This document shows, piece by piece, positions 1,921 through 15,473 of a stretch of 64,000 bases of DNA. Under the pieces are notes generated by a model. It ran no database searches and was not told where the DNA came from. It was given only the letters and a program-made list of their open reading frames with translations. Numbering within the stretch: the first letter of the stretch is position 1; the number at the start of each line of letters is the position of its first letter. A program made the translations under genes and the position numbers. This DNA is from Pseudoclavibacter triregionum (GTDB lineage: Bacteria > Actinomycetota > Actinomycetes > Actinomycetales > Microbacteriaceae): positions 2,046,001 to 2,110,000 of the forward strand of contig OU365335.1 in the NCBI GenBank assembly GCA_910822395.1, given 5' to 3'.

Positions 1921-1940
1921 TCTTCCATGCCGCCCCGCCG

Positions 1941-1946
1941 TAGGCT
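1941..1946 (+). promoter_or_regulatory. -10 element, leaderless uvrB promoter
   Basis: TAGGCT ends 8 nt before the ATG at 1954, so transcription should begin at or next to the start codon. No good -35 and no LexA-type GAAC-N4-GTTC box is visible nearby. Confidence 0.6.
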
Positions 1947-1953
1947 TCCGGGC

Positions 1954-4038
1954 ATGGAGCCGACGCGCATGGTGCACCCCTTCGAGGTCGTGAGCGAGTA
2001 CAAGCCCTCCGGCGACCAGCCGCAGGCGATCGCCGAGCTCGCGAAGCGGCTCCGCGCCGGCGAGCCGGACGTCGTCCTCCTCGGCGCGACCGGGACAGGC
2101 AAGTCGGCGACGACGGCCTGGCTCATCGAGGAGCTCCAGCGCCCCGCGCTCGTCCTCGCCCACAACAAGACGCTCGCCGCCCAGCTCGCGAACGAGTTCC
2201 GCGAGCTCATGCCGCACAACGCCGTCGAGTACTTCGTCTCGTACTACGACTACTACCAGCCGGAGGCGTACGTCCCGCAGACGGACACCTTCATCGAGAA
2301 GGACTCCTCCATCAACGAGGAGGTCGAGCGCCTCCGCCACTCGACGACGAACGCGCTGCTGAGCCGCCGCGACGTCGTCGTCGTCTCGACCGTCTCCTGC
2401 ATCTACGGCCTCGGCAAGCCCGAGGAGTACTACGACCAGATGCTCGCGCTCCAGGTCGGCGACGTCATCCCGCGCCAGGAGCTCATCCGCCGCTTCGTGA
2501 ACATGCAGTACACGCGCAACGACGTCGCCTTCCAGCGCGGCACCTTCCGGGTGCGCGGCGACACGATCGAGATCATCCCGATGTACGAGGAGCTCGCGAT
2601 CCGCGTCGAGCTCTTCGGCGACGAGATCGACGCGATCTCCGCCCTCAACCCGCTCACCGGCGACGTCGTGCGCGAGATGGAGGCCGTGAGCGTCTTCCCG
2701 GGCTCCCACTACGTCGCGGCCGAGGACGTCATGCGCCGCGCCATGCGCGGCATCCGCGACGAGCTCGACGAGCGCCTCCAGCAGCTCGACCGCGAGCAGA
2801 AGCTCCTCGAAGCGCAGCGCCTCCGCATGCGCACGAGCTTCGACCTCGAGATGATGGAGCAGATCGGCTTCTGCTCTGGCATCGAGAACTACTCGCGCCA
2901 CATCGACGGCCGCCAGGCGGGGGAGCCGCCGCACTGCCTCCTCGACTACTTCCCGGACGACTTCCTCACCGTCATCGACGAGTCGCACGTCACCGTGCCG
3001 CAGATCGGCGCGATGTTCGAGGGCGACGCGAGCCGCAAGCGCACCCTCGTCGAGCACGGGTTCCGCCTGCCGTCCGCCCTCGACAACCGCCCGCTCACCT
3101 GGAGCGAGTTCTCCGACCGGGTCGGCCAGACCGTGTACCTCTCGGCGACGCCTGGCAAGTACGAGCTCGCGCAGGCGGACGGCGTGGTCGAGCAGATCAT
3201 CCGCCCGACCGGCCTCATCGACCCGAAGATCGTCGTGAAGCCGTCGAAGGGGCAGATCGACGACCTCCTCGAAGAGATCCGCACCCGAGTCGAGAAGGAC
3301 GAGCGCGTGCTCGTCACGACGCTCACGAAGAAGATGGCGGAGGAGCTCACGACGTTCCTCGGCGAGCACGGCGTGCGGGTGCGCTACCTCCACTCGGACG
3401 TCGACACGCTCCGCCGCGTCGAGCTGCTCACGGAGCTTCGCCAGGGCCAGTACGACGTGCTCGTCGGCATCAACCTCCTCCGCGAGGGCCTCGACCTGCC
3501 GGAGGTGTCGCTCGTGGCGATCCTCGACGCGGACAAGGAAGGGTTCCTGCGCTCGACGACCTCCCTCATCCAGACGATCGGCCGCGCGGCGCGCAACGTC
3601 TCGGGCGAGGTGCACATGTACGCGGACGTCATGACGGACTCCATGGCGAAGGCGATCGAGGAGACCGAGCGTCGCCGCGAGAAGCAGATCGCGTACAACA
3701 CGGAGCACGGCATCGACCCGCAGCCGCTGCGGAAGAAGATCCGCGACATCACGGACCAGCTCGCGCGCGAGGAGCAGGACACGGCGGAGCTGCTGCAGAC
3801 CCGCCGCGGCAACGCGCGCGCCGACCACGCGCAGAAGAAGGCGCCGACGCCGCGCCTCAAGCGCGAGGGCATCGCCGCCGAAGGCGCGACCGAGCTCGAG
3901 GCGCTCATCGAGGACCTCAACGGCCAGATGCTCGCGGCCGCCGGCGAGCTGAAGTTCGAGCTCGCGGCGCGCCTTCGAGACGAGCTGCAGGACCTCAAGC
4001 GCGAGCTGCGGGCGATGGAGAAGGCGGGGCACGCGTAG
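1954..4038 (+). CDS. uvrB: Excinuclease ABC subunit B
   Basis: 694 residues, normal length. UvrB is the damage-verifying helicase of nucleotide excision repair, loaded by UvrA and partner of the nuclease UvrC. Walker A GATGTGKS is at residues 44-51; the damage-clamping beta-hairpin with [12 protein letters not shown] is near 95-110; the DESH box (VIDESHV) is near 342; helicase motifs include [13 protein letters not shown] and QTIGRAARN; the C-terminal UVR motif that binds UvrC is at about 650-690. The start at 1954 is preferred over an in-frame ATG at 1927 because that one lies upstream of the -10 box TAGGCT. Confidence 0.98.
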
Positions 4039-4078: not shown

Positions 4079-4768
4079 CTAGGCCGTGCCGACGTCGCCC
4101 TCCAGGCGGGAGAGCTCCTCGAGGAGCACGCGCTCGGACTCCCCGAGGTAGGCGCGCAGCTCCTCTGCGGCCTCGGCGACCCGGTTCGCCTCGACGAGCG
4201 CGAGGAGGCCCGCGTTCCGCTCGATGAAGGGCTCGTGGAAGCCGCCCTGATCCCGCACCCGGACGAAGGCGAGACGCAGCTCCGCGGACATCCGCTCGCC
4301 GAAGGCCGAGATGCGCGGCGAGTCGGCGAGGTCGAGGATCGCGCAGTGGAAGCCCATGTTCGCGGTGCCCAGCGCCGTCCAGTCGGCGCGCGCGCATGCG
4401 GCCCGGCTCTCGTCGAGGCGGGCCCTCATCGCGTCGAGGGCCGGATGCGCAGGCGAGGCCATCGCGATCGCGCCGACCTCGAGCATCGTCCGCATCCGGT
4501 AGGTGTCCGCGACCTCGGCGGGACCGGGGGAGCGGACGAAGACGCCGCGATGACGCCGGTGCTCGACGAGCCGCTCGAGCTCGAGGAGGCGGAACGCCTC
4601 CCGGAGCGTGTTCCGGGAGACGCCCAGGCGGTCGGCCGTCGCCTCCTCGGCGAGCTGGACACCGGGCAGGTGCACCCCGGCGACGAGCTCCGAGCGAAGC
4701 CGCGCGGCGACCTCCGCGGTGAGCGAGGCGGCGCGGCCGGCATTCGGGGTGCGCGGGGCTGGCGTCAT
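4079..4768 (-). CDS. GntR-family regulator, FCD (FadR) subfamily, of the pxp operon
   Basis: 229 residues. N-terminal winged helix: [22 protein letters not shown], then [30 protein letters not shown] (recognition helix near residues 47-60) and the wing [10 protein letters not shown]. The C-terminal all-helical FCD ligand domain begins near residue 85 ([16 protein letters not shown]) with metal/ligand-type His residues ([25 protein letters not shown]). It is divergent from the transporter-pxpA-pxpBC-biotin carboxylase operon and is its likely ligand-responsive regulator; the ligand could be 5-oxoproline, by inference from context only. The start at 4768 is supported by TAGGCT 8 nt upstream. 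In B. subtilis the equivalent locus uses KipR, an IclR-type protein, so the regulator differs. Confidence 0.9.
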
Positions 4769-4775
4769 GCCGGGA

Positions 4776-4781
4776 AGCCTA
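4776..4781 (-). promoter_or_regulatory. -10 element, leaderless gntR promoter
   Basis: Read on the minus strand the hexamer is TAGGCT, ending 8 nt before the ATG at 4768. It is identical to the uvrB -10 box. Confidence 0.55.
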
Positions 4782-4802
4782 GAGACTTCGCGACGCCACC
4801 GC

Positions 4803-4832
4803 TTGCGCGATTGTTCAACAATGCCGTACGGT
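4803..4832 (+). promoter_or_regulatory. Promoter of the pxp operon
   Basis: TTGCGC (4803-4808), an 18-base spacer and TACGGT (4827-4832) form a plausible sigma-70-type promoter, giving a leader of about 50 bases before the transporter start. The 13-bp operator lies inside the spacer. Confidence 0.45.
4810..4822. promoter_or_regulatory. Operator-like palindrome ATTGTT-C-AACAAT
   Basis: A perfect 13-bp dyad with a single central base, AT-rich in a very GC-rich genome, lying between the divergent gntR gene and its putative target operon and within the promoter spacer. FCD-type GntR proteins generally bind short dyads of this kind. Binding would block RNA polymerase, so repression released by ligand is the simple reading. 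Confidence 0.6.
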
Positions 4833-4887
4833 CTCACGAGGAGCGCGGCGCCCGCCCGCACCCCCTCAACGACGATGGGACCCAGTC

Positions 4888-6186
4888 ATGACCTCTTCCC
4901 ACCCGCGGCCGGCCTCCCCCGGCGGGACGGACGCCAGCGACGCCGCCGCCCCCGCCGGCACGACGCGCGACTTCGCGAAGGAGCGGCGCTCCTCGCTCAT
5001 CGGCGCCGTGTTCCTCATGGCGACCTCCGCCATCGGCCCGGGCTTCATCACGCAGACGGCGAGCTTCACCGTCGCCGCCGGCGCCGCCTTCGCCTTCGGC
5101 ATCCTCGCCTCGATCGTCGTGGATTTCGCCGTCCAGCTGAACATCTGGCGCATGATCACCGTGACGAGGATGCGCGCGGGCGACCTCGCGAACCGCGCCG
5201 TGCCCGGCGCGGGCTACCTGCTCGCCGCGCTCATCATCTTCGGCGGCCTCGTCTTCAACATCGGCAACATCGCCGGCGCCGGCCTCGGCCTCAACGCGCT
5301 CCTCGGCATCGACCCGAAGGTCGGCGGCCTCCTCTCGGCCGCGCTCGCGATCTGCATCTTCCTCGTGAAGCGCTTCGGGGTCATCGTCGACCGCGTCGTC
5401 GTGGTGCTGGGCCTCGTCATGATCGTCCTCACCGTGTGGGTCGCGATCGCCTCGGCCCCGCCCGTCGGCGAGGCGCTCCGGCAGACGGTGCTGCCCGACT
5501 CCGTGAACTTCGCGACGATCACGACGATCATCGGCGGCACGGTCGGCGGCTACATCACCTACGCCGGCGCGCACCGCTTCCTCGACGGCGGCCACGCCGG
5601 GGTCGACCACATCCCGCAGGTGAACCGCGCCGCGCTCAACGGCATCCTCGTCACGGGCATCATGCGCTACGTGCTCTTCCTCGCGGTGCTCGGCGTCGTC
5701 GCGAGCGGCGTCGCGATCGACACCTCGGGCCAGGCGGCCAACCCGGCCGGACAGGCCTTCCAGCACGTGCTCGGCGACGCGGGCCTGCGCATCTTCGGCG
5801 CCATCTTCTGGGCCGCGGCGATCACCTCGGTCATCGGAGCCGCCTACACCTCGGTGACCTTTCTCCAGACCTTCTCGAAGCGGATCGAAGGCCGCGCCCT
5901 GAGTGTCGCGACGGTCCTGTTCATCCTCGTCTCGCTCGTCGTCTACCTCCTCCTCGGCACCGCGCCTGCGGCGCTCCTCGTCTTCGCCGGCGGCCTCAAC
6001 GGCCTCATCCTCCCGATCGGCCTGACGATCTTCATGTTCATCGGATGGGCCCGCTCCGACCTCATGGAGGGATATCGCTATCCGCGATGGCTGCTCGTCA
6101 TCGGCACGCTCGCGACGCTCCTCACCTGGTACATGGCGGCGGTCTCGGTGCAGCCGATCTTCGCCCTCCTCGCCCCCGGGGCATGA
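4888..6186 (+). CDS. Nramp-fold membrane transporter of the 5-oxoprolinase locus (YcsG-like)
   Basis: 432 residues, about 11 membrane helices after a 35-residue polar N-terminus. The family is Nramp (natural resistance-associated macrophage protein), but the metal-binding signatures are absent: where classical Nramps have Asp-Pro-Gly-Asn in helix 1 this protein reads [14 protein letters not shown] (near residues 45-60), and the helix-6 Met-Pro-His motif is replaced by [12 protein letters not shown] (near 220). It is therefore unlikely to carry Mn or Fe. B. subtilis has the same association (ycsG beside ycsF). It is first in an operon with pxpA, overlapping it by ATGA. Uptake of 5-oxoproline or a related lactam is my inference. 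Confidence 0.85.
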
Positions 6187-6986
6187 CGATGCCGACCTCC
6201 GCCATCGATCTCAACGCCGACCTCGGCGAGAACGGACCTGAGGGCACCGTCGCGGACGACACCGCGATGCTCGACCTGGTCTCGAGCGCGAATGTCTCCT
6301 GCGGCGTCCACGCGGGCACCCCGGAAGGCATCCGCACGACGCTCGCGGCCGCGGTGGAGCGCGGCATCTCGATCGGGGCGCACCCGTCCTACCGAGACCG
6401 GGAGGGATTCGGACGCCGCGAGCTCGAGGTGACCGCTTCGGCCCTGCAGGCGGAGGTCGAGTATCAGCTCGGCGCCTCGATGGGCCTCGCGGCGGCCGTC
6501 GGCGGGCGCGTGCGGTACGTGAAGCCGCACGGGGCGCTCTACAACCGGATCGCCGTCGACGCCGGGCTCGCAGGGGTCGTCGCGGCGGCCGTGCGCGCCA
6601 TCGACCCGGGACTCGTGCTGCTCGGCCTCGCCGGAGGCGCCGCCCTCGAGGTCGCCGAGCGAGCGGGCCTCGAGACGGCCGCGGAGGCCTTCGCCGACCG
6701 CGCCTACACGGCCGACGGCCAGCTGGTGCCGCGTTCCGCCGCCGGCGCCGTGCTCCACGACGCCGAGGCGATCGCCGCGCGGATGGTGCGCCTCGCGACC
6801 GACGGCGAGCTCGAGGCGTCCGACGGCTCGACGATCCGGCTCCGCGCCGATTCGATCTGCGTGCACGGCGACTCGCCGGGCGCCGTCGCGCTCGCCCGCG
6901 CGACCCGTGATGCGCTCGAGGCGGCGGGCGTCGCGATCCGACCTTTCGTCGGCCCGCACGCGCAGGCAGCCGAGGCGGGGCGCTGA
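6183..6986 (+). CDS. pxpA: 5-oxoprolinase subunit A (LamB/YcsF family)
   Basis: 267 residues, normal length. PxpA works with PxpB and PxpC in ATP-dependent opening of 5-oxoproline to glutamate. The family motifs are intact: DLNADLGE (residues 9-16), [11 protein letters not shown] (about 35-45), [16 protein letters not shown] (about 62-77), [12 protein letters not shown] (about 111-122), [17 protein letters not shown] (about 175-191) and [12 protein letters not shown]. It is a metal-dependent TIM-barrel-like enzyme. The start ATG at 6183 overlaps the transporter stop (ATGA), and its stop overlaps the start of the next gene (TGATG), so the three genes are translationally coupled. Confidence 0.95.
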
Positions 6987-8566
6987 TGCGCCGCATCCTC
7001 ACCGCCTCAGATCGGGCGCTGCTCGTCGAGGAGGAGGACCTCCCGGCGACCGTCCGTCTCCTCCGCGCGCTCGAGGCGGCGGCGCTGCAGGGCGTGGAGG
7101 AGCTCGTGCCGGCGGCGCGGACCGTGCTCGTCCGCTTCGATCCTCACGCCGCCAGAGCCGCCGAGCTGCGCGAGGCGATCGCGGCGCTCAACCCCGAGGA
7201 GGCGAAGGCGGGCCGAGCGCGGGAACACCTCATCCCCGTCCGCTATGACGGCGAGGATCTCGAGGAGGTCGCGTCCCTCCTGGGCATCGCGCCGGACGAG
7301 CTCGCGCGGCGCCACCAGGCCGCGACCTGGACCGTCGCCTTCACCGGATTCGCGCCGGGCTTCGGCTATCTCGTCGGCGACGACCCGATCTTCGACGTGC
7401 CGCGCCGACCCTCGCCGCGCACCCGCATCCCGCGCGGCGCGGTCGCGCTCGCCGGGCGCTACTCGGGCGTCTACCCTCGGGAGAGCCCCGGCGGCTGGCA
7501 GCTCATCGGTCAGACCGATGTCGCGATGTGGGACCTCGGCCGGGAGCGGCCCGCCCTGCTCGCGCCCGGGGACGTCGTGCGCTTCACGGATGCCGCGCCG
7601 GGCCCGGCGTCGGCGAGCCCGACGCCCGAGACCACGGGCGTCCTGCCCGCCGGCGACGATGCCCGCGCGCTGCGGCCCGCCCTCGAGGTCGTCACCGCCG
7701 GCGCCCAGCTCCTCCTGCAGGATCTCGGGCGGCCAGGGCTCGCCGCGCTCGGCGTCTCGGCCTCCGGCGCGGCCGACCGGCGCGCGCTCCGGGAGGCGAA
7801 TCGCGCCGTCGGCAACCCAGAGACCGCCGCTGGCCTCGAGCACGCCGGCGGCGGCGCCGTCCTCCGCGCCCGCGGCCCGGCTGTGGCCGCGGTCGCCGGT
7901 GCCGAGGTCAATGCTCGGATCGACGGCGAGCGGGGGCTCCGGACGGTGCGCGCGGGCGAGCCGTTCCCGCTCGACGACGGCGACGAGGTCCGCATCGACC
8001 GCATCCTCGCCGGCCTCCGCGTCGTGATCGCCGTCCGGGGTGGCATCGCCCTGCCGAGCGTCCTCGGCAGCCTCGCGAGCGACACGCTCGCGGGCCTCGG
8101 CCCCCGCCCGCTCCGCGCTGGCGACGTGGTGCCGCTCAGGGGATCCGCTTACGCGACGTCGGCGGTCGATCCGCACCCGGCGCCCGTCCGGAACCTCCCG
8201 CGACCCGGCGAGGAGGCGGTGCTCCGCGTCACCCTCGGCCCCCGTGACGACTGGTTCTCCGCATCCGCCGTGCGAGCGCTCGAGCACCAGGCCTGGACCG
8301 CGACGCCCCACTCCGATCGCGTCGGCATCCGGCTCCGGGGCGAGACCCCCCTCGAGCGCGCCCGCGACGGCGAGCTCGAGAGCGAGGGCTCCGTGATCGG
8401 CGCCATCCAGGTCCCGCCGGACGGGCAGCCTGTCCTCTTCCTGCCCGACCATCCGCTCACGGGCGGCTATCCCGTCATCGGCGCGGTCATCGACGACGAC
8501 CTCGATCTCGCGGGACAGATCCCGCCCGGCGCGACGGTGCGGTTCCGCATCGTCCTACGAGGCTGA
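6986..8566 (+). CDS. Fused 5-oxoprolinase subunits B and C (KipI-KipA / AHS1-AHS2)
   Basis: 526 residues joining two proteins that are separate in E. coli (PxpB, PxpC) and B. subtilis (KipI, KipA). Residues 1-205 are the AHS1/PxpB part, with AFTGFAPGFGYL, VPRRPSPRTRIPRGAVALAG and YPRESPGGWQLIG. A linker rich in Pro/Thr/Ala follows near 205-235. Residues about 235-526 are the AHS2/PxpC part, with LLLQDLGRPGLAALGVSASG, REANRAVGNP and a C-terminal VIGAIQVPPDGQPV plus HPLTGGYPVIG. In urea carboxylase the same two domains form the carboxyltransferase, which matters because a biotin carboxylase follows in this operon. Start ATG overlaps the pxpA stop. Confidence 0.93.
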   Translation: MRRILTASDRALLVEEEDLPATVRLLRALEAAALQGVEELVPAARTVLVRFDPHAARAAELREAIAALNPEEAKAGRAREHLIPVRYDGEDLEEVASLLGIAPDELARRHQAATWTVAFTGFAPGFGYLVGDDPIFDVPRRPSPRTRIPRGAVALAGRYSGVYPRESPGGWQLIGQTDVAMWDLGRERPALLAPGDVVRFTDAAPGPASASPTPETTGVLPAGDDARALRPALEVVTAGAQLLLQDLGRPGLAALGVSASGAADRRALREANRAVGNPETAAGLEHAGGGAVLRARGPAVAAVAGAEVNARIDGERGLRTVRAGEPFPLDDGDEVRIDRILAGLRVVIAVRGGIALPSVLGSLASDTLAGLGPRPLRAGDVVPLRGSAYATSAVDPHPAPVRNLPRPGEEAVLRVTLGPRDDWFSASAVRALEHQAWTATPHSDRVGIRLRGETPLERARDGELESEGSVIGAIQVPPDGQPVLFLPDHPLTGGYPVIGAVIDDDLDLAGQIPPGATVRFRIVLRG

Positions 8567-8590
8567 TCCGACCGCGCCCGCCCCCGCCGG

Positions 8591-8709
8591 CCCGTTCCGA
8601 CGCTCGGCCCGTTCCGACGCTCGACCCGTTCCGACGCTCGACCCCTTCCGACGCTCGACCCCTTCCGACGCTCGACCCCTTCCGACGCTCGATCCCTTCC
8701 GACACCCAG
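8591..8709 (+). repeat. 17-bp tandem repeat, six full copies plus a degenerate seventh
   Basis: Units CCCGTTCCGACGCTCGA / CCCCTTCCGACGCTCGA start at 8591, 8608, 8625, 8642, 8659 and 8676; a decayed unit (8693-8709) runs into the ribosome-binding site AAGGAG of the biotin carboxylase gene. Units differ at position 4 (G in the first three, C later) and at the last base of unit 1. The array fills most of the 156-base gap between pxpBC and the biotin carboxylase. The unit is not a multiple of three and contains no start codon in frame with the gene. Confidence 0.97.
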
Positions 8710-8722
8710 CAAGGAGCTCACC

Positions 8723-10456
8723 ATGCAGAAGGTCCTCATCGCCAACCGAGGCGAGATCGCGGTCCGCGTCATCCGCGCCTGCCGGGATGAGGGCCTTCGC
8801 TCCGTCGCGGTCTACGCCGACCAGGACGCGGACGCCCTCCACGCTCGGCTCGCCGACGAGGCCTGGGCCCTCCACGGCGCGACCCCGGCCGAGAGCTACC
8901 TCGACATCCCCGCGCTGCTCGCGGCGGCGACCGCCTCGGGAGCCGACGCGGTCCATCCCGGCTACGGCTTCCTCTCCGAGAGCGCCGAGTTCGCGCGCGC
9001 CGTCGAGACGGCGGGGCTCGTCTGGATCGGACCGACGCCCGAGTCGATCGAGCTCCTCGGCGACAAGCTCAGGGCGCGCGACATCGCCCGCCGGGTGGGC
9101 GCGCCTCTCGCACCGGGCTCCCAGGATCCGATCGGCGACGCGCGCGACGCGATCGCCTTCGCCGAGGCGCACGGCCTCCCGGTGATCGTGAAGGCGGCTT
9201 TCGGCGGCGGCGGCCGGGGTCTGCGCATCGCCCGCTCGCTCGAGGAGGTGCCCGCGGCGTTCGACTCCGCGAGCCGCGAGGCGATCGCCGCCTTCGGCCG
9301 GGGCGAATGCTTCATCGAGCGCTTTCTCGAGCGTCCGCGCCATCTCGAGGTGCAGGTGCTCGGAGACGGCGAAGGCGGCGTGCTCGTCGTCGGCGACCGC
9401 GACTGCTCGCTCCAGCGCCGCGGCCAGAAGCTCGTCGAGGAGGCGCCGGCGCCAGGGCTCACGGCCGAGGAGCGGGAGCTGCTCCACCGCTCGGCCCGCG
9501 AGCTCTGCGCAGCCGTGCGCTACCGCGGGGCGGGCACCGTCGAGTTCCTGCGCGGCGAGGACGGGACGATCTCCTTCCTCGAGGTGAACACCCGCCTGCA
9601 GGTCGAGCACCCCGTCACCGAGCTCGTCGCCGACGTCGACCTCGTCCGCGAGCAGCTCCGCATCGCGGCAGGCGAGCGGCCCTCGTTCGACGCCACGCCC
9701 GCGCCACGAGGGCACGCCATCGAGTTCCGGCTCAACGCGGAGGACCCCGGCCGCGGCTTCCTGCCGGCGCCGGGGCGCATCGAGCGCCTGCGCGTGCCGG
9801 CGGGCCCGGGCATCCGCTGGGATGCAGGCGTCGAGGAGGGCGACCGGATCGAGGCCGCGTTCGACTCGCTCGCGGCGAAGCTCATCGTGCACGGCGACGA
9901 CCGCGAGCACGCGATCCGACGGGCCCGGCGTGCGCTGGCCGAGCTCGTCGTCGAGGGCGTGCCGACCGTGACGCCATTCCACCGGGCGGTGCTCGAGGAG
10001 CCGGCCTTCGCCGAGGTCCCGCTCCGCGTCTCCACCCAGTGGATCGAGGCGGAGCTCATGCCCCGACTCGAGCAGGCACCCCGCCCGATTTCGTGCGAGG
10101 GGCCGACCCTTCGGCGCCTCTCGATCGAGCTCGACGGCCGTCTCGTCGAGCTCGGCCTGCCCGCCTCGCTCCTGTCCGCCCTGGGCGGGGTGGGCGCGAT
10201 GGGCGGCCTCGAAGCCGAAGGCGCCGGTCCCGTCGAGGCCCGCGACGACAGCGTGCTCCCCGCGCCCATGCCGGCCGCGCTCATCCGCTGGCTCGTCGAT
10301 GACGGGGTCGAGGTGGAGGCGGGGGAGGAGCTCGCCGTCGTCTCTGCGATGAAGATGGAATCGCGGGTCGCCGCGCACCGCGCGGGCCGGCTCGAACGGC
10401 TCGCCGCCGAGGGCGCGCAGCTCGAAGCCGGCACGCCGCTCGCGCGCATCCGATGA
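8723..10456 (+). CDS. Biotin carboxylase fused to biotin carboxyl carrier domain (AccC-like, pxp operon)
   Basis: 577 residues. Biotin carboxylase N domain 1-110 ([20 protein letters not shown]), ATP-grasp about 115-325 with the glycine-rich loop FGGGGRGLR (about 157-165), the catalytic EFLRGEDG and [14 protein letters not shown] region, and the C domain [17 protein letters not shown] near 335-440. The last 70 residues are a biotinyl domain with the attachment site AMKME (Lys544). AAGGAGCTCACC precedes the ATG. No acyl-CoA carboxyltransferase gene is beside it. It is last in the operon after pxpBC, so it may be the carboxylating half of a urea-carboxylase-like enzyme rather than of acetyl- or propionyl-CoA carboxylase; that is inference. 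Confidence 0.93.
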
Positions 10457-10458
10457 GC

Positions 10459-10474
10459 GCGGGCGGTCGCCCGC
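10459..10474 (+). terminator. Hairpin after the biotin carboxylase gene
   Basis: GCGGGCG (10459-10465), a 2-base centre and CGCCCGC (10468-10474) start two bases after the stop codon. There is no T-tract; the stem is GC-rich. It likely ends the pxp operon before the uvrA promoter. Confidence 0.45.
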
Positions 10475-10512
10475 CGGCACCCCCGCGCGGAGGAAACGTC
10501 GGCGCTCGCTCG

Positions 10513-10518
10513 TAGACT
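10513..10518 (+). promoter_or_regulatory. -10 element, leaderless uvrA promoter
   Basis: TAGACT ends 7 nt before the GTG at 10525, placing the transcription start on the start codon. This decides between that GTG and the in-frame ATG at 10549. Confidence 0.6.
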
Positions 10519-10524
10519 CGTCGC

Positions 10525-13542
<3,018 letters not shown>

Positions 13543-13544
13543 CC

Positions 13545-15473
13545 GTGGCCGACGTCCTCCCGTACCGCCCGAAGACCGGAGACATCCCGGCGGCCCCGGG
13601 CGTCTACCGCTTCCTCGACGCGAACGGCCGCGTGCTCTACGTCGGCAAGGCGAAGACCCTCCGCTCGCGCCTCTCGAACTACTTCGCGCCGCTTCGCACG
13701 CTCCACGAGCGCACGCGGGCGATGGTGACGAGCGCCTCGAGCGTCGAGTGGACGGTCGTCCGGAACGAGATCGAGGCGCTCCACCTCGAGTACACGTGGA
13801 TCAAGGAGTTCGATCCGCCCTTCAACGTGAAGTTCCGGGACGACAAGACGTACCCGATGATGGCCGTCACCGTGCAGGAGGAGGCGCCCCGCGTCTTCGT
13901 CACCCGTAACCGGAAGATCCGCGGCGCCCGCTACTTCGGCCCCTACCCGAAGGTGTGGGCCGTCAACGAGGCCATCGAGCTCATGATGCGCGTCTACCCG
14001 ATGCGCACCTGCAAGGACAGCGACTACGAGCGCGCCATGAAGACCGGCCGCCCCTGCTTCGCCGGACAGATCGGCCGCTGCGGCGGGCCCTGCTCGATGA
14101 AGGTGACGATCGAGGAGCACCGCGAGCTCGTCGACCAGTTCGTCCGCTTCATGGAGACCTACGACCGCTCCGCCCTCGTCGAGCTCGAGCGCAAGATGAA
14201 GGCCGCCGCCGCCGAGCACCTCTTCGAGAAAGCCGCCGTCTACCGAGACCGGATGATCGCCCTCGAGACCGTCCTCGAGAAGAGCGCGGTCGTCCTGCCC
14301 GACTCCGTCGACGTCGACCTTCTCGGCGTCGCCATGGACGAGCTCGCCGCCTCGATCCAGGTCTTCAGCGTCCGCGGCGGGCGCGTGCGCGGCGTCCGCG
14401 GCATGGTCGTCGACACCGAGCTCGACCTCACGATGGGGGAGCTGCTCGACCAGACCGTCCAGTCGCTCTACGGCGACGGCGGGCTCTTCCCGCCGCCCGA
14501 GATCATCGTCCCCGAGCTGCCCGAGGACGCCGACGCCCTCTCCGAATGGCTCGCCGAGCGCCGCGGCACCGCCCGCGTCCGACTCAAGACCGCGCAGCGC
14601 GGGCCGAAGGCGGCCCTCATGGAGACGGCGACCGTGAACGCCAAGGGCGCCCTCTCGCAGTACAAGCTCAAGCGCACCGCCGACTACGTGGCGCGCACCG
14701 ACGCGCTCACCGACATCCAGGAGGCCCTCGGGCTCTCCGAGGCGCCCCTGCGCATCGAGTGCTTCGACATCTCGCACCTCGGCGGCACCGGCATCGTCGG
14801 CTCCATGGTCGTCTTCGAGGACGGCCTGCCGAAGAAGTCCCACTACCGCCGTTTCTCGATCGCCTCCGCCCGCGACGACACGGACGCCATGAACCAGGTG
14901 CTCCGCCGCCGCCTCGCGCACCTCGCCCCCGAGGCCCCGAGCGAGGCCGAGCGCGCCCTCGCCGAGCGCCCCGACCCGCACGCCGAAGGCGAGGTCGAGG
15001 GCGGCGACCCGCGCTCGAGCCGCCCGAAGTTCGCGTACCGCCCGCAGCTGCTCCTCATCGACGGCGGCCTTCCGCAGGTGAACGCCGCCCAGCGCGCCCT
15101 CGGCGAGTCGGGCGTCGAGGGCATCGCCATCGCCGGCCTCGCGAAGCGTCTCGAGGAGCTCTGGCTCCCCGGCGACGAGTTCCCGGTCATCCTGCCCCGC
15201 AATTCGGAGGCGCTCTTCCTCCTCCAGCGCCTCCGCGACGAGGCGCACCGCTTCGCGATCAGCCACCAGCGCACGACCCGCAAGCGCTCGCTCGCGAGCG
15301 AGCTCGAGTCGGTGCCCGGCCTCGGGCCGACCCGCGTGAAGGCGCTCCACGCGAAGTTCGGCTCCCTCAAGCGCATCCGCGACGCCACCCCCGAGGAGCT
15401 CGCCGAGGTGCCCGGCATCGGCCCCGCCACCGCCCAGGCGATCGCGCAGGCGCTGTCCGCCGAGCGCCGCTAG
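13545..15473 (+). CDS. uvrC: Excinuclease ABC subunit C
   Basis: 642 residues. Dual-incision nuclease of excision repair. N-terminal GIY-YIG domain (GVYRFLDANGRVLYVGKAKT near 16-35), a Cys cluster CFAGQIGRCGGPC near 167-180, the UVR motif LEHLFEKAAVYRDRM-like segment near 225-240 that contacts UvrB, an RNase-H-like 5' nuclease domain (CFDISHLGGTGIVGSMVVF, then LLIDGGLPQVNAA) and a tandem helix-hairpin-helix at the C-terminus (SVPGLGPTRVKAL, EVPGIGPATAQAIAQAL). Start GTG at 13545, two bases after the uvrA stop, begins VADVLPYRPKTGDIP, which matches where UvrC proteins begin. It is co-transcribed with uvrA. Confidence 0.97.
   Translation: MADVLPYRPKTGDIPAAPGVYRFLDANGRVLYVGKAKTLRSRLSNYFAPLRTLHERTRAMVTSASSVEWTVVRNEIEALHLEYTWIKEFDPPFNVKFRDDKTYPMMAVTVQEEAPRVFVTRNRKIRGARYFGPYPKVWAVNEAIELMMRVYPMRTCKDSDYERAMKTGRPCFAGQIGRCGGPCSMKVTIEEHRELVDQFVRFMETYDRSALVELERKMKAAAAEHLFEKAAVYRDRMIALETVLEKSAVVLPDSVDVDLLGVAMDELAASIQVFSVRGGRVRGVRGMVVDTELDLTMGELLDQTVQSLYGDGGLFPPPEIIVPELPEDADALSEWLAERRGTARVRLKTAQRGPKAALMETATVNAKGALSQYKLKRTADYVARTDALTDIQEALGLSEAPLRIECFDISHLGGTGIVGSMVVFEDGLPKKSHYRRFSIASARDDTDAMNQVLRRRLAHLAPEAPSEAERALAERPDPHAEGEVEGGDPRSSRPKFAYRPQLLLIDGGLPQVNAAQRALGESGVEGIAIAGLAKRLEELWLPGDEFPVILPRNSEALFLLQRLRDEAHRFAISHQRTTRKRSLASELESVPGLGPTRVKALHAKFGSLKRIRDATPEELAEVPGIGPATAQAIAQALSAERR

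Follow-up and report, generated by a model that had tools for sequence, protein, structure and literature searches.

Why does a biotin carboxylase gene follow pxpA, pxpB and pxpC in an operon of the actinobacterium Pseudoclavibacter triregionum? The window studied here is a stretch of 64,000 nucleotides (assembly GCA_910822395.1, contig OU365335.1, positions 2,046,001 to 2,110,000), and four of its genes encode an Nramp-fold transporter, PxpA, a PxpB-PxpC fusion (PxpBC), and a biotin carboxylase (BC) joined to a biotin carrier domain (BCCP). The operon is best explained by the uptake and degradation of 5-oxoproline (pyroglutamate) under a PxpR-type repressor, and we consider it highly likely that BC-BCCP is a dedicated functional partner of PxpBC. 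The recurring pairing suggests that some bacteria open the 5-oxoproline ring with the help of biotin and bicarbonate, and that genes next to pxpABC with an annotation as second acetyl-CoA carboxylase subunits have a different function.

5-Oxoproline is formed in all cells, and the coupling of ATP to ring opening by PxpABC is assumed rather than shown, according to the introduction of PMC13274462 (this paper, PMC11315280, PMC3199775, PMC5770610 and the record of PDB 9yx5 are cited throughout for their accessible parts). The association of one BC clade with PxpBC in two phyla points towards a testable answer on that coupling. A survey from 2011 noted adjacent urea-carboxyltransferase-like gene pairs with no functional data (PMC3199775). 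Linkage of pxpBC and BC has been published before for Staphylococcus aureus, under an acetyl-CoA carboxylase label: pxpB, pxpC, pxpA, accB and accC lie in one six-gene operon, which is bound by CcpE; unlike in the window, BC and BCCP are encoded there by separate genes, accB and accC, assigned to fatty-acid synthesis (PMC11315280). We found no paper proposing a biotin-dependent 5-oxoprolinase in the literature searched, which left most subscription papers outside, so that one may be in print elsewhere.

Linkage of a biotin carboxylase clade to pxpBC

A PxpBC match was present in 227 of 398 genomes of the same family, and 40 of the 227 were chosen for spread, not at random. A second set, the named loci, consisted of the best 80 of 596 matches, among which BC-linked fusions are probably over-represented. 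A locus counted as unlinked if the 1 kb behind pxpC contained no BC start in the orientation of pxpC. The first-pass annotation, made from the letters of the window, had proposed a survey for BC adjoining pxpBC, and the outcome was positive in two phyla: BC lay directly behind pxpC on the same strand in 23 of the 40 family loci and in 69 of the best 80 of 596 named loci, with BCCP as well in 66 of these 80. The median gap between pxpC and BC was 68.5 bases (range, 21-310). The named loci span alpha-, beta- and gamma-Proteobacteria and many Actinomycetota, and linkage was seen in both Actinomycetota and Pseudomonadota.

No acyl-CoA carboxyltransferase was matched beside any of the 92 linked loci when the genome's own Carboxyl_trans protein served as the single phmmer query over up to about 7-10 kb a side, a search that a distant AccA/AccD type could escape. 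The same query matched one of the 120 loci, the unlinked family locus L054 (PF01039 confirmed). In L054 (3080-8237), pxpABC is followed by the Carboxyl_trans gene, a BC from outside the linked clade and BCCP; the locus looks like one that carries a whole acyl-CoA-type carboxylase where the linked BC would stand.

In a first BC tree (123 rows; a quick method with SH-aLRT support alone), all 95 linked BCs, including that of the window, formed one clade with a support of 100. The only other row inside it, L011, labelled 'oth', duplicates the BC of the window. Outside it fell the unlinked AccA-type BCs of related Actinomycetota, which we presume to be general acyl-CoA carboxylase subunits, five urea carboxylases, and the presumed pyruvate carboxylase; the comparison BCs came from 25 relatives and the fetched loci, and none was an unlinked BC from Pseudomonadota. 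In a second BC tree, the best BC of all 17 family genomes with unlinked pxpBC (17/17) grouped with the unlinked BCs, and the only outgroup, a urea carboxylase on a very long branch (4.73), joined within the linked rows. The likelihood rose by 3.9 log units when the linked rows were constrained to stay together (p-AU 0.577). We relied on the first tree because it had more outgroups and because the constrained second tree scored better. Distance correlations between BC and the Pxp proteins (0.68-0.79) were not above those among the Pxp proteins (0.80-0.82) and add nothing.

The genome is one contig of 2,360,996 bases, with an estimated completeness of 90%. It holds a single CT_C_D match, the window's own, and three BCs. 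Besides that of the window, these are an AccA-type BC at 1,126 kb, within a frame of 702 aa, and a BC at 2,247 kb, within a frame of 1,206 aa, presumed to be pyruvate carboxylase. The biotin/lipoate ligase family gave two matches, one of them 1.1 kb from the Carboxyl_trans gene. At E 1e-300, where five true urea carboxylases showed in 198 genomes, the genome gave no urea carboxylase match. The first-pass annotation had seen no acyl-CoA carboxyltransferase in the operon, and this held: the window BC has no such partner nearby, and the sole Carboxyl_trans gene of the genome lies at 1,141 kb. This one carboxyltransferase found could draw on another AccA-type subunit. The earlier proposal that the biotin protein and PxpBC belong together is supported by the linkage in two phyla, the single BC clade and the absence of a carboxyltransferase match near the 92 linked loci with the one query, and further by the other AccA-type subunit, the 5-oxoproline operator and the binding structure 9yx5, as far as its record goes.

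The 5-oxoproline operator and its distribution

The operator of PxpR in Corynebacterium glutamicum is agattgttcaacaatct, with ATTGTTCAACAAT as its core; pxpTABC is repressed by PxpR, which binds 5-oxoproline, and is expressed more strongly when the motif is lost (PMC13274462). The window contains the core, centred 72 bases ahead of the transporter start, and the C. glutamicum motif is centred 65 bases ahead of pxpT (PMC13274462). Allowing up to one mismatch, the window copy is the only copy in the genome, and shuffled windows gave 0 matches. The C. glutamicum system also resembles that of the window in its Nramp-family transporter, in PxpA, PxpB and PxpC, and in its divergent GntR regulator, but its PxpB and PxpC are separate genes and, in the accessible part of the paper, its operon is described without a BC (PMC13274462). 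Because the PxpR operator is present, and because growth of C. glutamicum on 5-oxoproline requires pxpT and pxpABC (PMC13274462), the business of the window operon is very probably 5-oxoproline.

The divergent regulator and the operator were both missed by the first-pass annotation. The longest open reading frame of the regulator (window 4079-4861) starts with GTG at 4861 and would overrun the operator, and we therefore placed the more probable start at the ATG at 4768. By tblastn, the regulator was matched (34-51% identity) in 22 of the 40 family loci.

The 11-base core TTGTT[CG]AACAA was present in 9/23 linked versus 0/17 unlinked family loci, and in 53/69 linked versus 2/11 unlinked named loci, and five control palindromes of like composition occurred in 0 to 2 of the 120 loci. 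A copy of the core lay 33-110 bases ahead of the first detected downstream pxp match in 49 of the 62 linked loci having it; in the other 13, it was 1.2-3.3 kb off, presumably ahead of genes outside the models used. The core was not found in 30 of the 92 linked loci. This distribution ties BC to 5-oxoproline independently of gene position. An Nramp transporter gene lay within the DNA fetched for 20/23 linked versus 0/17 unlinked family loci, and for 33/69 linked versus 1/11 unlinked named loci. D-glutamate cyclase family genes were found in or near the pxp operon in 11/40 family and 33/80 named loci, with PF07286 confirmed in L044 (8567-9364) and L055 (8127-8900); none lies within 4079-10456 of the window.

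Proposed carboxyl transfer and its alternatives

How might BC act with PxpBC? BC would carboxylate biotin on its own carrier domain, spending ATP and bicarbonate; the carrier domain would swing into the carboxyltransferase fold of PxpBC, which would carboxylate 5-oxoproline at its lactam nitrogen, in the manner of urea carboxylase acting on urea. PxpA would hydrolyse the activated ring to N-carboxyglutamate, which would shed CO2 to give glutamate. With carboxybiotin made in this way, the ATP step would sit in BC. We derived this mechanism from the domain logic, the binding structure and the co-regulation, and we regard transfer from carboxybiotin to the lactam, followed by PxpA hydrolysis, as an evenly balanced matter. 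The fuller proposal is tentative: PxpBC and BC-BCCP may form a biotin-dependent 5-oxoproline carboxylase that, with PxpA, opens the ring by N-carboxylation, not phosphorylation, and bacteria without such a BC may borrow the general AccA3-type subunit.

The urea carboxylase of Kluyveromyces lactis (3va7/5i8i) has the same BC, BCCP, CT_A_B and CT_C_D modules, but in a single polypeptide that acts on urea and has Lys1605 as its general base, where the window has Arg. PxpBC shows a carboxyltransferase-type fold; in the PDB fold list obtained with the model, the urea carboxylase rows span model residues 214-526 only, that is, without the PxpB half, and cupin and Pictet-Spenglerase rows also appear with middling Z. 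In PDB 9yx5, MSMEG_0435-MSMEG_0436, the homologues of PxpC and PxpB, are bound to an AccA3-containing complex; unlike the BC studied here, the partner is a mycobacterial long-chain acyl-CoA carboxylase complex, not a BC encoded beside pxpBC. As far as its record goes, this structure fits a borrowed AccA3 for unlinked PxpBC.

The window BC has the biotinyl lysine, Lys544, and all nine of the BC residues looked for at Escherichia coli catalytic positions. Eight of the nine are kept in 92/92 aligned rows (91 linked plus the window), and the equivalent of Arg291 in 88/92. One row with Trp at the Arg291 position belongs to L166 (7007-7600), a metagenome-assembled genome in which PxpB is in two pieces; these oddities may reflect either decay or an assembly error.

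Several observations weigh against biotin-dependent ring opening. In K. lactis urea amidolyase, Lys1605 is most likely the essential general base, and K1605A retains 8% of the overall kcat/Km (PMC5770610). This residue falls in GTKYNPSR of the CT_C_D domain, as counted along the printed alignment, and in a MAFFT sequence alignment its position corresponds to Arg140 (7403-7405) of the window PxpBC. The first-pass annotation had held that loss of the urea-carboxylase carboxyltransferase residues would tell against its proposal, and such a loss was found in part: Arg occupies the position in 91/91 linked and 28/28 unlinked PxpB rows and in the window, that is, in 120/120 rows, whereas both aligned urea carboxylase rows (L084 and KlUA) keep Lys. 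The PxpB count omits L166, and of the five urea carboxylase loci, L085 failed the boundary pattern and L086-L088 were left out. From the alignment, PxpBC may use another base, Arg may fit a different acceptor, or the chemistry may differ.

Further, no near-invariant residue separates linked from unlinked PxpBC; a search for residues present in at least 90% of linked and at most 55% of unlinked rows yielded three weak positions, all of them in PxpC. It follows that, if linked PxpBC is biotin-dependent, unlinked PxpBC may be so too, borrowing AccA3, and that the earlier claim of a route distinct from E. coli 5-oxoprolinase is unproven. No BC was found within 1 kb behind pxpC in 17/40 family and 11/80 named loci, among which the named locus L093 stops at a contig edge just past pxpC and several other contigs are short. 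In a PxpBC tree of 117 rows, shorter ones having been dropped, 10 changes of the linkage label are required, and starred branches force at least 6 of these; therefore, BC was gained or lost repeatedly while PxpBC stayed. No in-frame fusion of PxpC and BC occurs among the 92 linked loci. In the window, the BC gene starts 156 bases past the stop codon of the fusion, a gap that would allow it a separate promoter. The exclusiveness of the BC subfamily applies to the rows compared, none of which was an unlinked BC from Pseudomonadota. Niehaus reportedly found in 2017 that recombinant Bacillus subtilis PxpABC was active without an added biotin protein. The C. glutamicum pxpTABC operon, in the accessible description without BC, supports growth on 5-oxoproline (PMC13274462).

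One lineage also counts among these points. The linked BCs of L076 (4154-5704, minus strand), L077 (4007-5592, minus strand) and L113 (8668-10197, plus strand) lack the BCCP domain; they carry Gly and Ala in place of Asn289 and Arg291, and Gln293 is lost. These frames are open, with NG86 dN/dS of 0.34-0.42; PxpB and PxpC from these loci gave 0.14-0.26, and three further pairs of BCs gave 0.09-0.44. The degenerate BC thus looks constrained, though more weakly than PxpB and PxpC beside it, and in this lineage it is hardly catalytic by itself. The three loci are a natural near-knockout of BC catalysis beside pxpBC.

In a rival reading, an ordinary ATP-dependent PxpABC phosphorylates its substrate, with BC-BCCP bound to it off the catalytic path, boosting or regulating it or recapturing CO2, an explanation that we rate as somewhat improbable. 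It is favoured by systems with no BC in the operon, such as that described for C. glutamicum (PMC13274462, as far as accessible), by the reported activity of B. subtilis PxpABC alone, by Arg in all 120 PxpB rows, by the lack of a near-invariant residue that tracks BC linkage, and by the L076/L077/L113 lineage, which keeps a seemingly constrained BC without BCCP, Asn289 and Arg291. A purely structural partner, however, need not keep the catalytic residues that are kept in 92/92 rows (Arg291 in 88/92), and BCCP stands behind BC in 66 of the best 80 of 596 named loci. We also know of no ATP site located in PxpBC, which is a further point against it.

Could BC-BCCP instead be a second alpha subunit of acyl-CoA carboxylase, its position reflecting nothing but a coupling of glutamate and lipid synthesis? 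AccA3 is indeed the closest solved relative of the window BC-BCCP, and the S. aureus operon is described as one of 5-oxoprolinase and acetyl-CoA carboxylase genes (PMC11315280, in its accessible part). This explanation is unlikely, as the linked BCs form a clade separate from the unlinked AccA-type BCs, no acyl-CoA carboxyltransferase was matched in the 92 linked loci with the one query, the genome has another AccA-type BC, and the operon carries a 5-oxoproline operator. It is very unlikely that the complex carboxylates another lactam or amide and that the operon is not mainly for 5-oxoproline: the PxpB and PxpC parts do fall under their equivalog cut-offs (118.7 versus 145.55 and 169.7 versus 500 bits), but PxpA is above its subfamily cut-off, the operator and transporter are of PxpR and PxpT type, and D-glutamate cyclase family genes accompany 11/40 family and 33/80 named loci.

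Features and family assignment of the operon

The features are listed in Table 1. In the Pfam scan of the window proteins, every domain quoted was above its own curated cut-off.

Table 1. Coordinates (window positions) of the pxp operon and its control region
Feature	Position	Strand	Evidence
PxpR-like GntR/FCD regulator, divergent from the operon	4079..4768	-	GntR 49.5 bits, FCD 51.4 bits (Pfam, scanned from the longer open reading frame)
PxpR operator core ATTGTTCAACAAT	4810..4822		Perfect match; motif from C. glutamicum (PMC13274462, accessible part)
PxpT-type Nramp-fold transporter, proposed 5-oxoproline importer	4888..6186	+	Nramp 65.9 bits; role proposed by analogy with C. glutamicum pxpT
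PxpA (LamB/YcsF family), proposed hydrolase	6183..6986	+	LamB_YcsF 302.5 bits; NF003814 324.9 bits
PxpB-PxpC fusion, 526 aa	6986..8566	+	CT_C_D 210 bits, then CT_A_B 265.2 bits
17-bp tandem array, 6.6 copies, between the fusion and the BC gene	8591..8703		
BC-BCCP (biotin carboxylase and biotin carrier domain), 577 aa, pxp-linked clade	8723..10456	+	Biotin_carb_N, CPSase_L_D2, Biotin_carb_C, Biotin_lipoyl

The open reading frames, the Pfam domains and the biotinyl motif bore out the first-pass description of four genes in one direction, with overlaps of 4 bases between the transporter gene and pxpA and 1 base between pxpA and the fusion, and with the biotinyl lysine at Lys544 (10352-10354, within SAMKMES). 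PxpA passed the subfamily model NF003814 (324.9 bits; cut-off, 226), and the equivalog models NF003815, NF003812 and NF003813 stayed below their own cut-offs. PxpBC passed TIGR00724 (233.3 bits; cut-off, 230.2). We assigned the fusion to the PxpB/PxpC family and not to an equivalog, because its PxpB part reached 118.7 bits against TIGR00370 (cut-off, 145.55) and its PxpC part 169.7 bits against NF045499 (cut-off, 500). The urea carboxylase model TIGR02712, its modules being split over two genes, gave 175.3 and 524.4 bits against a cut-off of 1303.85. BC and BCCP in one chain match the format of an AccA3-type alpha subunit (about 580-600 aa).

An AAGGAG stands ahead of the BC start. In a promoter and terminator scan of 4700-10600, the gap before the BC gene was empty, and folding of the 156-base gap was no better than that of shuffles (z 0.24). 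Most of the gap is occupied by the 17-bp array (96% matches), whose unit occurs elsewhere in the genome as two single copies, each with one mismatch. By eye, the translations on either side resemble UvrB (1927-4038), UvrA (10525-13542) and UvrC (about 13500-15473), so that the pxp operon looks as if it lay within a uvr gene cluster.

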